Shown in pieces: positions 2,272-52,300 of a stretch of DNA of 64,000 nt (position 1 is its first letter; every line of letters begins with the position of its first letter). A program made the translations under genes and the position numbers. This stretch comes from Centroberyx gerrardi (Eukaryota > Chordata > Actinopteri > Beryciformes > Berycidae): assembly GCF_048128805.1 (NCBI RefSeq), contig NC_136000.1, forward strand, positions 17,610,354 to 17,674,353, in the 5' to 3' direction. Under the pieces are notes generated by a model. It ran no database searches, had not been told where the DNA came from, and saw nothing but the letters and a program-made list of their open reading frames with translations.

Positions 2272-2498
2272 CAGGAAAAGGAGAAACGGTTAATTAGCTT
2301 CTGGTGGACCACCGGCACTCCACCCTGAACTGGGGGCCTTAGGGGAGTGGTCCGAGTGACGTCCAGTGCTAAAGGCTTTGCCAGACAAATCCAGTAAAAG
2401 AGTATCGCCACCTCCATTAGGTCATGTGGTGCAACTTTATCGCTAACTCATCAAGTACTGTAGAACACAGTAAGTATTTCTCAATCATTTAGTCATAG

Positions 2499-2646
2499 TA
2501 ACAGTAATAGTAGTGGTAGTAGTAGTAGTGGTAGTAGTAGTGATAACAGTAGTAGTAGTGGAAGTAGTAGTAGTAGTAGTGGTAGTAGTTGTAGTGGTAG
2601 TAGTAGTGATAACAGTAGTAGTAGTGGTAGTAGTAGTAGAAGTGGA

Positions 2647-2678
<32 letters not shown>

Positions 2679-2966
2679 TAGTAGTGATAACAGTAGTAGT
2701 AGTGGTAGTAGTAGTAGAAGTGGAAGTAGTAGTAGTAGTAGTAGTGGTAGTAGTTGTAGTGGTAGTAGTAGTAGTGGTAGTAGTAGTGATAACAGTAGTA
2801 GTAGTGGTAGTAGTAGTAGAAGTGGAAGTAGTAGTAGTAGTAGTAGTAGTACTAGTAGTGGTAGTAGTAGTAGTAGAAGTAGTACTAGTAATGGTAGTAA
2901 TAGTAGTAGTAATAATAGTAGTGATAGTAGCAATAGTAGTAGTGGTAACATTAGTAGTAGCAGTAC
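2499..2966. repeat. TAG/GTG trinucleotide array (about 470 bp)
   Basis: Almost the whole stretch is built of TAG or AGT triplets with interspersed TGG, TGATAACAG and AAG variants. Higher-order units recur: a block ending in a TGATAACAG variant appears at least four times, so the array expanded as larger units as well as single triplets. Opposite-strand poly-Leu and poly-Val frames are artefacts. Confidence 0.9.
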
Positions 2967-3296
2967 TAATGTGGTAGTTGCTGCCTGGTCATTACTAAGA
3001 ACCATCTTGACCATGACTCAGAGGGGAGGAGGTTGATTAGCAGTGACAACTGGGTCGGGTTTGATTACAGCACAACAGGAGGGGCACAGAGGAGGTGCTG
3101 TGATATGAACACAGCAGCATGGAACACATCCCCAAACGGGTGGTCCCACTTCAGGACAATAGAGTCATGATGAGCAGTGATGTTGCTGGCTCCAGATGCA
3201 CAACTCCCTGTCAGTCTGTCTGTCTGTCTGTCTGTCTGTGTGTCTGTGTGTCTGTCTGTCTGTCTGTCTGTCCTTCTCTCTCTCGCTCTGCCTAAA

Positions 3297-4383: not shown

Positions 4384-6555
4384 GCATACACACAGAGATC
4401 GGCCAAGGTAAGGTCCACTCTCCTCTCCATCTCTTGTCTCCATCTCCATCTCCTTTACTCTGAGCTTTAACCTTCCATCTCTGTTTCACCATCTCACAAT
4501 TACCTCACCATCTTCACTATCGCGCTTTCTCTTTCTCCATTTCTAACGTCTAACTTCAAATGACTTTTCTCTGACCACATCAATTTGTTTTAATTGTGCA
4601 TGTTGGAATGTTTGGAGTTATTTGTAAGAGTTGTGTAGCATGTAAGCGGCAGGTGTTGCGGATTAGGTATTGTTTTCCTTGTCTGGTTTTAGATTGTCTT
4701 GTAGCTCCAGCAGATCTCACACAAATATAATCTTATATTATATTTATTATCTAAAATCTAGTAGGAGTACAAGAACCTTTAGCCCAGTTTTTGCAGAGCA
4801 TGTATCAGAATCTGGGCGAGCAGGGGCGGCGAATAACAAAATCAGTGATCTTTGTACCGATTACACAGTCAGAAATTCACATGGTATCCCTTTTCCAAAT
4901 ATTGACTAGCATAAACAAATATACTGTGGAAATTACTGGAAGGAAGCTGAGGTGTACAAAATGGTGACATCCAGAAACAAACTTGTGCCTGCTGCCTTAG
5001 TGAGTTGACACATTTAGAGTTAAAATATTTAAGAAAAAAGAAAGTTAGATAAAGATGGAGAACTGTCAGCAACAGGAGAACACTTACCCGCATGACTTGA
5101 TCTCTAAACATGTCCCGTATCATCTTTCTCCTAGGAATACCAGTGCTTTTGTGCTGTGCATCCTGGGCATACTACAAATATGGACTACACACTGGCCCTC
5201 CTCCTGTTTTCCCTGCTGCAGATTTTCAATGTAGGCTCAGCAGCTTCTCTGTCAGGGGAAGCAGTGAACATGAGGACCAAAATCAAATTTAATGTTGGAC
5301 AGCTGGTGTGGAGGATAGACAGAGACTTCCAGGTAATAGATATATTTACTGTAACATACTCTGCAAAAAATCAGACGTGTTCACACAAGTTCATGTGTTG
5401 GAATGAATCATTTTCTCTCTCTCTCTTGCTGCAGGTCCCTGCTGGCCTGACTATCAGCTCCCCTGCAGATAATCTAGATGGCCTTTCCTCCATAGTGATG
5501 GTTCTGCAGGGCTACGAGAGCCTGCTCTCTGAAACCCTTGACGGGCTCCCCCAGCTGAAGCAGGAGGTGTCTTCGTTGAGGGGATACCTGGACCACTGGA
5601 GGCAGGGGCACTGCAGCGAGCCGCGGCCGAAGCCCCCCATGCAGGGGCGGCTGGCGGAGCTGCAGAGTCGAAAACAATATATTCACACCGTGAGCATCGA
5701 GGCTCTCATGGGACTGAGGGAGTTCCTCAATCAGCTGCTGAAGAACCTGGACCGTCTTGAGACTTGCTGATCCACTGGGATCAGGAACAATGGTGTTTTT
5801 CAGTTGTTGAGTTTGGGACAAGATTTGTCAATCATGTCTGGGTCAGTGGCTAAACTTAATCAAGTTTGTGAAGCAAAAAGAATTTGCAATTTGACTTAGC
5901 ATCCCACCATTGGCCATTTTGAACATTTTGCAATGTATTTTCGAGCAATATCTTCTTTGTCCTTGACATATTTATATTATATATTTATTTATATATTTAG
6001 CAGAAAATGTATTTTTTAACAAACATGGCCTTTTCATAAGAATGTTTGCAGCGAATGTGTAGCCTACTTTCAATAGGAATGTTTACATGCAAATTGATCT
6101 ATGCTTTGCACGGCAAAAGATTTATCAGATGCTGATAGACTGGCAATATGACACCGGTGTTTTGGGAACAAAGAGCACTGTGCTGTCAGGATACCCATAT
6201 TCATTCACTCATGAGGCTGAATCAGCTGAGTAAGCTTGTCTGTAGCCAGAGCGAATGTCACTATGAGCAGTGACGTCATCCTCAGAGATTCCTGAAAGCC
6301 AGGTAAAACATGCCAAGAAAAGCAGACGTTTTTGAGAACTGTTAGAAAACTGTTAGAGAAGGAAAGAGCAAAGGCACAGTGTGATCTTCAGTCTTTATCA
6401 GTGCAATATCATCAGCCTCTCTACAACAGAATACTGTTGATGTCCATTCTATTTATATTGCATATTTTTGTACAGTGGAAAATGTTTTTGTAATCATTGG
6501 ATAAAAAGTATGTATACAAGCCTATTTAACTAAAATAAAGTATTTTTTTGTAATA
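4384..6555 (+). CDS. lep: Leptin (teleost, probably the A paralog)
   Basis: Secreted class I helical cytokine hormone that signals through the leptin receptor to JAK/STAT. Proposed gene: non-coding exon 1 about 4384-4407; exon 2 5135-5332 with the start at 5180; exon 3 5435-5770 to stop. The phase-0 junction gives 162 residues, the usual leptin length. Residues 1-21 (MDYTLALLLFSLLQ...) are a signal peptide. The exon 3 opening (GLTISSPADNLDGLSSIV) is a leptin hallmark. The only two cysteines, Cys111 (GHCSEP) and the C-terminal Cys162, match the single conserved leptin disulfide. An upstream in-frame Met at 5156 would put eight polar residues before the signal peptide, so 5180 is preferred. The neighbours rbm28, prrt4 and impdh1 are those of mammalian LEP. 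The A-paralog assignment is inferred from synteny. Confidence 0.93.
5967..6000 (+). promoter_or_regulatory. AU-rich element in leptin 3' UTR
   Basis: Overlapping ATTTA pentamers in a pure A/T stretch lie about 200 bases after the stop codon. Such elements commonly destabilise cytokine and hormone mRNAs; that role is inferred here. Confidence 0.45.
6534..6539 (+). terminator. Polyadenylation signal of leptin
   Basis: AATAAA lies about 760 bases after the stop codon and is followed by a T-rich stretch, consistent with the end of a roughly 0.8-kb 3' UTR. Confidence 0.6.
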
Positions 6556-35042: not shown

Positions 35043-42608
<7,566 letters not shown>

Positions 42609-42693
42609 CTCAGGGAAATCCAGGGCTACGACCTCCTCGGGCTCCACCGCCTCACACACACACTTTAAGCACTTCTGACTTCTGACATACACT

Positions 42694-44641: not shown

Positions 44642-44647
44642 TTTATT
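44642..44647 (-). terminator. Polyadenylation signal of the kinase-CARD gene
   Basis: AATAAA on the minus strand, about 280 bases past the proposed stop codon at 44927. Confidence 0.45.
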
Positions 44648-44926
44648 ATGAGGCACAGGATATGGCGTAATATAAAAAAAAAAAAAACATTTAAAATTAC
44701 AAAAATACCTTGAGTTGCTGTAAAACATACGTTGCAATGTAGAAAGATATCAACAAAATACATTTTATGAATAAAATACACAGCTTTCTATTCCACAGTG
44801 GATTTCATTTCCTTAAAAAAATAGAACAGTGATAATTTTGGATTGATTAGAAGCAAGCAGTTGAGTATTTGATACCTGTGATCATTAGCCAAATGTCCAA
44901 GTAGGCTAATCATTGCTTTTTTCTGA

Positions 44927-47900
44927 TCATCTGGAATTAGCCTGAGGGAAGAAAATATAGTCAAATGAATACCTTTAATAACTTTGTCCAGGATCAGAGT
45001 ATCATGTTTGACCACGTAAAGGAGAGTAAATCTTACCAAGCCTCTCATTAGGTGCCGTTCATGTTTTATGAGAGCGTCGTAGAAGGCCGCTTTGACCTTT
45101 TTCTGTCCTGACCGTAGTGAGCTTGTATATAGCACCCTCACTTTATCCTGGTTTGTCTCTTTAGCTTGAATCTGTGCATAGGTCTCAGGGTGGACCATGT
45201 CTCCAAGGTAGTCTGCTATTGCCATTACATTGGCAATGTCCTGAATTAACTTTGCCCTGTGATCATCCACGAACTTTGCTGTTTTCAAATGAAGAAGAGA
45301 GGAATCAAAGCAAGTACACCAAGGCAAACTACCGGATCTAATTGTGAATGTGACCCGTCATAAATGCCATAGCAATAGCAAGTTCATTTATGTTGTCTTT
45401 GTTAAGATATTGAGAATGTACGCACTGCCAAAAAGCACTTTAGTTCATTTTCACTTCAGGGACACAGAGGATCAGGTCATGGACAACTCACCTTTCTCTG
45501 TATCACTCAGTTCTACAGTATGCGTAGCAACAGAGTCCTGCTGGCAAAAGAAAAAAAAGCTATTTCAGTCTATATTACGTAATTATACCATTGCACTATT
45601 AAAAGTATTATATGATACTCGTTAGAGCAGGTGTTCTCAAATCCCTATTCCTACCAAGGACCCTAAACAGATTTTCATTTTTAGGTTTCCTTTGTGACTG
45701 AATGATGTGTTGATGATAATAAAGGATGGAGAATGTGGTGTCCGTTCTCATCAAAATATCAATGCAATATTTAATTGAGCAAAATTAATTAATTATCAGA
45801 GAAATCAAGGTATTCTTCATGGTGCTGGGGGCCACCTGGTACCCCCTTACAGACATTGCTTTGAACTTCCTATGAGGCAAAAGTCAAAGTGCATTACCTG
45901 TTTGGAAGAACCTTTAGTTTTTGGAAAACTGGCATGATCCACTGTATCCATTGACTGTGCTGCCAAAAGAAGTAGAAGGTTCTGCATTTTGTTGTATTGT
46001 GGACATTATGGAATAATGTATCAGATCCATATTAAACTTAATCCTGACCCACAGGTGATGTTAAAAGAGGTACCTGGTGGCTGAGCATGAAAACTGGATG
46101 GTACACGTGCGCTTGATGGCAGATGATCGACTTCTGACTCCTGGAGAAACAGAGGATATTATAAAGACATTAGTGGGTGTAGATCAGGGAGAGAAATGAA
46201 GCAATTAAAATAGGTTAATCTAAATTATGAATCATGAGTAATCCAGCAATATATTTCATTTCACCAAATGAATTTATGTACCGATTTTGACAAGACTTGA
46301 GTGACAGCATTACGAATTCTGTCCTTGTGCTTCAAGTACACGCGCTCGGTCACTGCACAGCACTCTGAAACAAAAGCCACAATATTTTTCAATTTAAAAT
46401 ACACACTGGAAATCACAACGTGCAAGAACGAACACTGCGGCTGTGTAAAGACTGCAGGTGTAGTAAGCGCTACAAAACCTGCACACTATCAAAAATTAAG
46501 GACGGAAGGTTTCTAAGTGCATAGTGCAGTGTGGCAAACATTTAGGTGACCATCTACATAGCGATTGCAGCGACAGACACTCACGTTCAAAGGTAGGCCT
46601 CTCAGACGGCTCGTGGACCCAGCACCTCTTCATGAGGTCAACCAGCTCTCCTATCCCGTCTGCCTTCCTCTGGTCGATTTCCTCACAGGGAGGTCTGTCC
46701 CCCAGAGGGATCCGCAGCGCCACGCGACTGTAAGGGGCCGCTACATGAGATACAGTGAAGACATGCTGTACATTCAGAACACACGAACACAGCTGAGTGT
46801 GTGTGTATATGTGTGTACTTTGTGTGTGTGTGTGTGTGTGTGTGTTTACAGGATGATAAAATACTCAGACTACCTTCCTATCCTGACTCCTATTTTAACG
46901 CTCTAATTTTGACCTCTGTCTTACACCAGAACATTTTTCCTGCAACTTCTGTCAGCATGCTTTTCACAAAACATGACTTTGCAGCAACATTGTGTTGCAG
47001 GTTTTATAGATAGACATACAGTATCTACCATTAGAAAATATAAAAAATTTAACCACAGTAGTAGTCCCACTTTTTACTGCATGCTTGCTGAACTACTCCC
47101 AGAGGAATTGTTTGGGAAAATGAGGCTTTGCTTGCTTTACAGGCGCCAGAATTTACAAGAAATGGCCTGATAACTAGTTGGTTGAGAGACATCAGAATTT
47201 GGTTTTAAAAATACTCATTTGGCTCTACAGTAAATCGAGTAACAATGATCTGCAACTGCTGTCGCCTTGTCCAGTTTTCATCCTCTGTAAAGTGCATGCA
47301 TGTGAGTCTGTGCTTCTGTGTAAACTAAAATAGTTTAATTTAGTTGTAAAGTGATAAAGCATAGAAACAAACAATATAAAAATCGGTGACAAGAAGAGAA
47401 AGTATGATAAGAAAACAAGATGCAATCTGTACAGAGGAGATAACCCAACCAATAAAAAAACAACAAAAAACAGATGGCAAGACATAACTGCATTGGATTA
47501 AAGATCTAAAACATAAATGACAAAAGAAACAACATGGTGGAAAACAGAACAACAATAGGATCCATAAAATGACAAGGGAAATGAGAATAAAAATACATTG
47601 AAATAGCCATTATTTACCTGGATAGGGATCTTTACCAGTAAGAATGGACCAGAGAAGTATACCATAGCTGATAAAGAGAGAAAAAGATTTTCTTAAATTA
47701 ACATCTTTCATACATTTAAGGCTACTTTAAGACAGTTCATAGCGTTCCTTTGAGAGCTGACCTGTACGTGTCGTAGGCACGGACAGGTTCGTATGATGGA
47801 TCAAAAGCCTCAGGAGGCATGTAGGCGAGAGAGCCTCCTTCCTCCCCTGCTGTAAATCTGCTGCTGTTCAAATCACTGGTGGAAACCCTGGACAGGCCAA

Positions 47901-48651
47901 AGTCTGTTAGCTACAGAGTAAGAGGAAAAACATGACATGGGAAAATTAGAGAGATTTAACAATTAATTCAGTCAGTCCTGTATTTAAAATAAATACCAGA
48001 ATTTAGGTTAATGTCGGTCTACCTTGGCATTGAGGTCCTCATCCAGCAGCACATTACTGGGCTTCAGGTCCTTGTGCAGAAGAGGTGGTGTCAATTTGTG
48101 GAGGAAGTTCATGCCTAGAGCCACCTGGTGGGCCAAGCGGAAGGCCAGGGGCCAGGGTGGAGGGCCAGACAGGGCCTGCTGCAGGGACTGCAGAGAGTCC
48201 CTTTCCATGAACTCCATGACTATACCCAGTCGCACGGAAGATTCCCCTGGGGGAAAGCCACTATACACTCCTAAAAGCCTCAGCACAAAAGGGTTGGAAG
48301 CCTGCTCCATGTGATTAGCCTCGTGCCACAGGGCTCCATCTTTAATGGAGCTGGAATGAGGTAGGGGGCAGTTTAGGAGGAGAGAGAGAGCAGAAGGAAC
48401 GTTGCTGCTTGAAAGACTCATTTTGAAAAGATGTTTATGAAGCAAATGAATAGTGTGAATTAAGTAAGCCTAATTACAGAGAATCCAGACAATTACCCAT
48501 TTCCATGATGAGGCACCTTAATGGCCACATTAAACCCCCAGTCCTTATGCCTGGCCCTGTAGACCTTCCCAAAGCCCCCTGCACCAACCACTTCCCAGTC
48601 CTGCAGGCTGTCATCACCAATCGGCACGGCCTTGTGGCTCGGCAGTGCCAT
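44927..48651 (-). CDS. RIPK2/RIPK3-like protein kinase with C-terminal CARD
   Basis: Eleven exons join in frame to 451 residues: 48651-48497, 48350-48023, 47910-47762, 47667-47618, 46740-46585, 46364-46282, 46140-46074, 45959-45898, 45540-45492, 45278-45037, 44941-44927. Kinase about 18-285: G-loop GAGGFGKVY, VAIK Lys45, catalytic loop HKDLKPSN (Asp146; Lys replaces the usual Arg), DFG 164-166, YMPPE 191-195, SERPTF near the end. The LTPPLLH and YMPPE segments recall RIPK2; RARHKDWG, FVLRL and LKPSNVLLD recall RIPK3. A 60-80-residue polar linker follows. A CARD-like helical domain occupies about 367-447 (FVDDHRAKLIQDI, VHPETYAQIQAKETNQDKVRVLY), closer in my reading to ASC/NLRP1-type CARDs than to that of RIPK2. 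Kinase-CARD proteins couple CARD receptors to NF-kB or cell-death signalling; that role is inferred. The last exon adds only four residues. An acceptor just before the ATG implies a 5' UTR intron. Confidence 0.85.
46799..46846. repeat. TG microsatellite in intron 4 of the kinase-CARD gene
   Basis: Two TG runs separated by ATATGTGTGTACTT, about 60 bases upstream of exon 5. Confidence 0.85.
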
Positions 48652-49129
48652 CTCTTGCTGAAAAAGGGTACAGCACTGGTAGCCTCAAATCTAGCAAAAA
48701 AAGATGGAAATAATTATAAAGTAATTAATATGGCAATATTCCACACCCAAGCCACAAAATATAAATATAAATGTACAGTGACTGCTTACATTGTATTCTT
48801 GTAATGCATTGTAGGCCTACACTGCTTACTGCTTACATTGTATTCTTGTTTTTACACTGAGGTTATGGCAGCTTTGTTTATGGGGTTATTGACACAAAAC
48901 ATTTCTATTCATGCACTATGGCAATGTAGTGTTACAGTTAGGTTTTTTTTACAATTGATTACAAGCATTTTTCAATACTAAGTTCACATTTTCAAAACTC
49001 TTCACACAGGTAGCACAAACTGTGAATCATTTTTCATTGCTTTGACACAAAATGAATTCAATGACCACAATTTTCAAAATACTGGAATTCATTTCTCACT
49101 CAAACTCAACCACCAGCAAAACTTCACTG

Positions 49130-50572: not shown

Positions 50573-51400
50573 CTTACAGTTTTTTCTGATTGTTTAGGCA
50601 CTATCTTTGAAACTATAGCCTATTTTTGCAAAACTCTACACACTAACCACAAAACCTTACACCAAACCAGCAAAACATTATACATCTCTTGCAAAAGCCA
50701 ACAATTCTTGCAAAACTCTTCAAATTCTTTTAAAAAATTGTGTTTTTGCGTCAATACAGTACACACAAACCATCATTTGAATAAGCACACGAAGCACCAA
50801 CTACACACTGACAGTATGAATGAAAAACACTTGTGGCTTTTGCTTTTTCTGTGTGCAGGGCATAGCAGTTTGCAATACTGTAAAGTTTTGTCATACATGT
50901 AGTAACGTAAACACACATACAAATAAGGGGAAAAAGTTTTTTTTTTTTTTTCTTACAGTAAGAAAAAAAAAAAACTTTTCCCCCTTATTTGGATTGATAG
51001 TGTGTTATGTTCGGAATACACATCCATACTTTACACATTTGGATACCTGTGTGTATGTGTGTTTACGTTACTACATGTATGACAAAACTTTACAGTATTG
51101 CAAACTGCTATGCCCTGCACACAGAAAAAGCAAAAGCCACAAGTGTTTTTCATTTATACTATCAGTGCGTAGTTGGTGCTTCGTGTGCTTATTCAAATGA
51201 TGGTTTGTGTGTACTGTATTGACGCAAAAACACAATTTTTTAAAAGAGTTTGAAGAGTTTTGCAATAATTGTTGGCTTTTGAAAGAGATGTATAATGTTT
51301 TGCTGGTTTGGTGTAAGGTTTTGTGGTTAGTGTGTAGAGTTTTGCAAAAATAGCCTATAGTTTCAAAGATAGTGCCTAAGCAATCAGAAAAAACTGTAAG
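50573..51400. mobile_element. 828-bp foldback palindrome element
   Basis: The left arm 50573-50925 and right arm 51046-51400 are near-perfect reverse complements for about 350 bases (outer ends CTTACAGTTTTTTCTGATTG and CAATCAGAAAAAACTGTAAG). The spacer contains a second hairpin (about 50923-50999) made of a T-run and an A-run around CTTACAGTAAG. Open frames on the two strands translate to nearly the same peptide because of the symmetry and are not genes. Confidence 0.85.
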
Positions 51401-51699: not shown

Positions 51700-52300
51700 T
51701 CAACGTCTTCAAATAGTCTTTCACTTTTGAACCTGTTTTGAACGTCTTTTCACCGGTGACCATAGTCATTTTTTAGACGTCTTTTCAACGGAAAAAATGC
51801 TCACTGGGAGGAAAAAATGGAAATGATAATTAAATTTGCCATTTAACATTTCATTTTCATGTTCTTCATGTTAGTGCTGGTGTGCTGCATGTTGGTGCAG
51901 AGAGCTGTATGAAGAGTTTTGAAAAAGTGAACTCAGTATTGAGAAATGCTTGTAACCAACTGTAAAAAACTGTAATCATATACGTCAGACTCAGCACGGA
52001 GTTTCCTTCCCATTTCCAATAAGACCGTTCATTTGAGTTCTTTCCAACAGCTCTCTCTTATCTCCCTCTCATTATATTGTTTAAAGCTTGTTGGTACTCA
52101 CCATATCATAATCCCATGTGTTGTACAGTAGATTATAATGTCCATATAAAGGAGTGTGTTAGTACATACCAGTCAAACAACCTCTAGAGCTGTGGCGGAA
52201 CAAGATTTGACAAGACAGTTTCCTGCCTCTGAGAACGTATCTGAGGTTGAGGGGTGGAGTTATGTCGTCATGTAACACTTCAGGTTTCACTGCTTTCACT

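Follow-up and report, generated by a model that had tools for sequence, protein, structure and literature searches.

To which signalling assembly does a RIP-family kinase belong when its C-terminal CARD does not resemble that of RIPK2? RIPK2 is linked through its CARD to NOD receptors, RIPK3 through its RHIM to necroptosis. A gene model in a 64,000-nucleotide stretch of the Centroberyx gerrardi genome (the window, from whose first letter all positions are counted) appears to combine in one gene the layout of RIPK2, a RIPK3-leaning kinase, and a CARD of inflammasome type. The best explanation, and one that is on balance probable, is that the gene is real and of vertebrate immune type, and that its product is a RIP kinase, probably active, whose inflammasome-type CARD would bring it to CARD assemblies.

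The gene was rebuilt from the raw minus strand (48651..44927) as 11 exons with a CDS of 1356 nt, giving 451 aa plus a stop (Table 1). The phases are consistent across all exons and 10/10 introns are GT-AG, reproducing the exon count, phases and length proposed by the sequence-only reading. Pfam places a PK_Tyr_Ser-Thr domain at aa 20-282 (E 2.8e-43) and a CARD at aa 368-449 (E 3e-6; 27.6 bits against a cut-off of 23.9), which bears out the claim that a RIP-family kinase and a CARD are joined in one gene model. Exons 1-6 are supported by homology because a single continuous, small-gapped RIPK3 alignment spans aa 11-302. Exon 10 is supported by CARD homology, while linker exons 7-9 have phase and splice-site rank only. 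The ranks were obtained with a weight matrix applied to the minus strand of 44700-48800, which holds 239 AG and 232 GT dinucleotides. The acceptors of exons 7, 8 and 9 rank 9th, 6th and 3rd of 239, and their donors 12th, 7th and 1st of 232. The weakest donor is that of exon 6 (51st), the exon 1 donor is 22nd, and the weaker acceptors are those of exon 5 (24th) and exon 10 (19th). Exon 6, which ends in phase 0, cannot be spliced in frame directly to the CARD exon, which has to be entered in phase 1; one linker exon or more must therefore lie between them. The C-terminal end of the protein, encoded by exon 11, may be wrong. The frame of the CARD exon (44788-45357, minus strand) is open across the last intron, a possible unspliced read-through form of 529 residues; 5' of the CARD exon the open frame contains no Met. 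Other poly(A) hexamers occur on the minus strand, but the ATTAAA lying between kinase and CARD (45770) is not informative because two further hexamers (47334, 48341) fall inside the kinase part.

Table 1. Parts of the kinase-CARD gene, in positions of the window
Feature	Position	Strand	Content
Exon 1	48497..48651	-	Start codon; glycine-rich loop GAGGFGKV (aa 23-30); VAIK with Lys45; aligned to RIPK3
Exon 2	48023..48350	-	Alpha-C Glu62; insert of RIPK3-like length before the hinge; catalytic loop HKDLKPSN (Asp146)
Exon 3	47762..47910	-	DFG (Asp164), activation segment, PPE; aligned to RIPK3
Exon 4	47618..47667	-	SYGILLWSILTGKDPYP; aligned to RIPK3
Exon 5	46585..46740	-	C-lobe end of the kinase; Ser232 at or adjoining the RIPK3 MLKL-site serine
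Exon 6	46282..46364	-	Post-kinase stretch aligning with RIPK3 (to aa 302-303); weak donor
Exon 7	46074..46140	-	Linker without homology; splice-site ranks
Exon 8	45898..45959	-	Linker without homology; splice-site ranks
Exon 9	45492..45540	-	Linker; donor ranks best in the region
Exon 10	45037..45278	-	Almost the entire CARD (aa 367-447), ASC/NLRP1/GBP type
Exon 11	44927..44941	-	Final four residues (ANSR) and stop; least certain exon
AATAAA poly(A) hexamer	44642-44647	-	About 280 bases beyond the stop codon

The N-terminal domain is a RIP-type kinase with its catalytic residues, Lys45, Glu62, Asp146 and Asp164, all present, and catalysis is therefore expected, as a prediction from sequence. 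The HRD arginine is replaced by lysine, likewise in RIPK1. In a phmmer search of solved structures (best 60 of 2514 matches), the kinase found RIPK3 first (6.1e-58 and 2e-54), followed by RIPK4 (2.6e-51), RIPK2 (8.9e-47) and RIPK1 (2.8e-34). The top 32 of these 60 are chains of these four kinases, and the RIPK3 score exceeds that of RIPK2 by 37 bits. The order was identical when five comparator sequences were scored locally (197.5, 186.1, 180.7, 162.4 and 118.6 bits). Identity is 110/281 to human and 112/284 to mouse RIPK3 (both 39%), 103/286 to RIPK4 (36%), 97/283 to RIPK2 (34%), and 87/279 to RIPK1 (31%), thus a modest lead for RIPK3.

The indels divide. By alignment count the segment leading up to the hinge, with 14 residues, comes closest to that of both RIPK3 chains (13) and is longer than in RIPK1 and RIPK2 (8 each) or RIPK4 (6), which speaks for RIPK3. 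The Lys45-helix C loop speaks against it: in both RIPK3 chains this loop is seven residues shorter, and here it matches RIPK1 in length and falls one or two residues short of RIPK4 and RIPK2. Exclusively matching sites number 17 with both RIPK3 chains, 16 with RIPK1, 13 with RIPK2 and 11 with RIPK4; such single-site matches do not decide the affinity. The best tree, of six rows and with a long RIPK1 branch, groups the kinase with RIPK3 at a support of 69/70. The AU test gave p-AU 0.0528 for a RIPK2 sister, 0.049 for a RIPK4 sister, 0.061 for a RIPK1 sister, and 0.312 for the set joining the kinase with RIPK2 and RIPK4. Placement in the RIPK3 clade is thus favoured, with support of 69/70 and one contrary indel, and placement in the RIPK2 clade is disfavoured. 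The kinase is best described as RIPK3-leaning, perhaps an early side branch, though this is not proven. The sequence-only reading had called it RIPK2/RIPK3-like; membership of the RIP family stands, and the label can be sharpened to a lean toward RIPK3 over RIPK2, with tree support (69/70) that is not decisive.

In agreement with the sequence-only reading, which saw no RHIM core in the linker, a search with a wide pattern over all three minus-strand frames of 44700-48800 turned up no RHIM-like tetrad. The whole window holds 36 such tetrads per 127,996 six-frame residues, so the chance expectation for the region is about one, and the negative, though clean, carries little weight for the non-coding part. 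A RHIM in a skipped or unspliced exon was considered and rejected on the same count. RIPK3 of lamprey is likewise reported to be without a RHIM (PMC7179693; this and the other papers are cited from partial text).

These features bear on a first alternative, which is tentative but has to be taken seriously. The gene could be a RIPK3 paralog with a swapped tail, in which exon shuffling brought in an inflammasome CARD and the RHIM was lost; through this CARD the kinase would be drawn to ASC specks and there phosphorylate MLKL or another RIPK3 substrate. The kinase scores, the pre-hinge insert and the post-kinase alignment with RIPK3 agree with this, and a CARD lying almost wholly in a single exon suits shuffling, but the clade support is 69/70 and the kinase lacks the short Lys45-helix C loop of both RIPK3 chains. 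The serine that would matter most is placed ambiguously. MAFFT aligns Ser232 with human RIPK3 Ser227 and mouse RIPK3 Ser232, the MLKL-site serine, whereas phmmer sets Tyr231, instead of Ser232, opposite human Ser227. Flounder RIPK3 cuts both ways: changes at K46, D146 or S231/S232 weaken MLKL activation and killing, and the protein without its RHIM-bearing tail neither interacts with MLKL nor kills (PMC10825024). An MLKL output would therefore need the CARD to substitute for the RHIM. Furthermore, MLKL is reported missing in zebrafish and pufferfish (PMC10825024), and zebrafish seems to possess a gene laid out in this way (PMC9573974); the MLKL output would thus not be general, if the zebrafish gene is an ortholog. 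The preferred explanation, a probably active RIP kinase recruited by an inflammasome-type CARD, overlaps with this alternative, which adds an origin and a substrate.

The type of the CARD is clearer than that of the kinase. Its top structure matches are the GBP-CARD 4irl (1.3e-10), presumably zebrafish Gbp4 itself, ASC 5gpq (8.3e-7) and NLRP1 7crw (9.8e-7). All 19 of its solved-structure matches at E<=10 are to GBP, ASC or NLRP1, and none is to RIPK2, NOD1 or caspase-1. When the RIPK2 CARD was used as query, NOD1 came next, and caspase-1, ASC and others followed far below. The CARD is identical to GBP (4irl) at 33/80 positions and to human RIPK2 at 17/81. Profiles were built from five inflammasome-side CARDs (ASC/NLRP1/GBP) and from three RIPK2/NOD1 rows; the CARD scored 75.3 bits with the former and 11.0 bits with the latter. 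Left-out controls scored 67.3 bits (zASC), 54.0 bits (zGBP), and 106.5 to 127.5 bits (mammalian ASC or NLRP1) with the inflammasome profile, and NOD1 scored 33.4 bits from the RIPK2 rows. The inflammasome profile gave 33.5 bits on human RIPK2 and 31.0 bits on NOD1; the CARD groups are therefore related but separate. In the CARD tree the domain pairs with the GBP CARD at 83/92, but the profile scores are preferred because none of the tree's branches is starred and those of NOD1 and caspase-1 are very long. By these sequence comparisons the CARD is assigned to the ASC/NLRP1/GBP group and not to the RIPK2/NOD type, in line with the ASC/NLRP1 resemblance proposed from the letters.

The partner of a CARD is not fixed by its sequence type. 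The residues of the ASC interface, with roles taken from PMC7801473 and PMC7830601, were aligned by eye. Several are altered (Arg125 to Asp380, Glu130 to Met385, Asp143 to Pro397, and Trp169 to Ser). Arg119, Asp134, Glu144 and Arg160 are retained, here and in RIPK2 too, and Asn128 is retained here but differs in RIPK2. Since RIPK2 keeps most of the same charged residues, the interface residues are no proof of ASC binding and were dropped as such. Zebrafish Gbp4, which bears a CARD, is reported to act through and need Asc (PMC4932187).

A second alternative is doubtful: the gene is RIPK2B, an old RIPK2 duplicate in which the kinase has drifted and the CARD has been altered beyond recognition, yet which still serves NOD-type receptors. 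The order of kinase and CARD is that of RIPK2, and the long Lys45-helix C loop is shared with RIPK2 and RIPK4, but the kinase has its 37-bit lead with RIPK3. The AU test does not quite reject the RIPK2 sister, nor the set with RIPK2 and RIPK4; the CARD, with its low RIPK2 identity and its 11.0 against 75.3 bits, and with no NOD1 where the RIPK2 CARD finds NOD1 next, argues the other way. In print, RIPK2B with kinase and CARD is described from many vertebrates with loss in therian mammals (PMC12119088), and a zebrafish kinase-CARD protein is filed under RIPK2 (PMC9573974). Gene neighbours, however, differ: IMPDH lies beside this gene, and ripk2, on chromosome 2 in zebrafish, has mmp16 and a cngb gene as its named neighbours (PMC7179693). 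The sequence-only reading had asked whether both domains fall squarely within the ripk2 clade; the CARD does not, and for the kinase such a placement is disfavoured (p-AU 0.053).

It is very improbable that two adjoining genes, or a pseudogene, were joined on paper: the linker exons are without homology, the exon 6 donor is weak, an ATTAAA lies at 45770 and the model is a prediction from sequence, but all exons lie on one strand with no stop or frame break, the linker splice sites are strong, no Met opens the frame preceding the CARD exon, and a zebrafish protein has the same layout (PMC9573974).

The surroundings of the gene were also surveyed. On the strand of the kinase gene and some 6 kb from it, Pfam found IMPDH and CBS domain pieces (35.8-38.7 kb), in agreement with the impdh1 neighbour named in the sequence-only reading; DUF829 pieces lie at 20.0-22.1 kb. 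A leptin-like piece at 5135-5767 (plus strand) is below the Pfam cut-off (15.2 bits vs 25). Human 7q32 has a leptin-IMPDH1 neighbourhood, which is not known to include a RIP kinase. Zebrafish ripk3 is on chromosome 7 (PMC7179693). The interval that separates the kinase gene from the IMPDH pieces includes 119 open codons without a Pfam match (42336-42692, minus strand), possibly an exon of an unnamed gene. An inverted repeat (50573-50921 and 51052-51400), located upstream of the kinase gene, has 349-base arms that are 98% complementary and a 130-base spacer, and may be a mobile-element palindrome. A second inverted pair (48945-49009 and 51905-51969) has 65 bases at 91%. A long low-complexity repeat at 2464-3033 is rich in serine codons, with several frames open on both strands.

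The gene is probably known as a database entry, because its layout fits published relatives. Zebrafish is listed with two RIPK2 plus one RHIM-bearing RIPK3; the second RIPK2, XP_005166455.1, is a protein of 513 aa with a kinase at 21-264, a CARD at 424-503, and 27.2% identity to human RIPK2 (PMC9573974). Matched by layout alone, the present gene is probably this second "RIPK2", though the zebrafish protein is longer (513 vs 451 aa), and the printed RIPK2B, likewise a kinase with a C-terminal CARD and likewise matched by layout alone, may be the same gene. If so, the gene is neither new nor fish-only. The suggestion of a fish-specific paralog was not borne out, given the many vertebrates from which RIPK2B is printed (PMC12119088), a point that is relevant if the two are the same gene. 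CARD type and kinase affinity are not discussed in the published accounts of the second RIPK2 and RIPK2B, as far as the available parts of these papers extend. Among the literature matches listed (titles and abstract starts, with subscription journals thinly covered), none described a RIPK3-like kinase with an ASC-type CARD. The available text of a teleost inflammasome review has a word starting with "ripk" once, as RIPK1 (PMC9978379), and that of PMC11747288 gives lancelet kinase-Death proteins only.

Each known system thus shares a part of this architecture. Like RIPK2, the protein has an N-terminal RIP kinase and a C-terminal CARD, but human RIPK2 is longer (540 vs 451 aa; PMC9573974), its CARD is of another type, and the present kinase scores higher with RIPK3 and RIPK4. 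RIPK3 is the top kinase match, with a comparable pre-hinge insert and an alignable post-kinase stretch, but it carries a RHIM where this gene has a CARD, and its Lys-helix C loop is shorter. The CARD-bearing GBP of 4irl has the closest CARD, preceded by a GTPase rather than a kinase.

Under the preferred explanation, the CARD would join, or be templated by, assemblies of ASC, NLRP1-like receptors or CARD-bearing GBPs. Crowding at these assemblies would let the kinases phosphorylate one another and become active. The active kinase would then supply an output beyond caspase-1 alone, most likely inflammatory signalling of the NF-kB/MAPK type, with MLKL-type lysis as a second possibility. The plan would be that of RIPK2, whose CARD recruits its kinase to a sensor, though the socket would differ. 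A bolder version seems rather unlikely to us: the kinase would be RIPK3-derived with its RHIM replaced by an ASC-type CARD, so that a kinase of necroptosis type would be recruited and fired by the inflammasome speck itself, with none of RIPK1, ZBP1 and caspase-8 as an intermediate, and the "second RIPK2" genes of fish would be this bridge, misnamed.

Together, a RIPK3-leaning kinase and an inflammasome-type CARD would make up a third wiring beside those of RIPK2 and RIPK3. Where such genes are called RIPK2 on account of their domain order, a CARD with a different partner set may go unnoticed. If the link is true, the kinase-CARD gene is a natural connection between inflammasome and necroptosis, and may wire two cell-death systems together.
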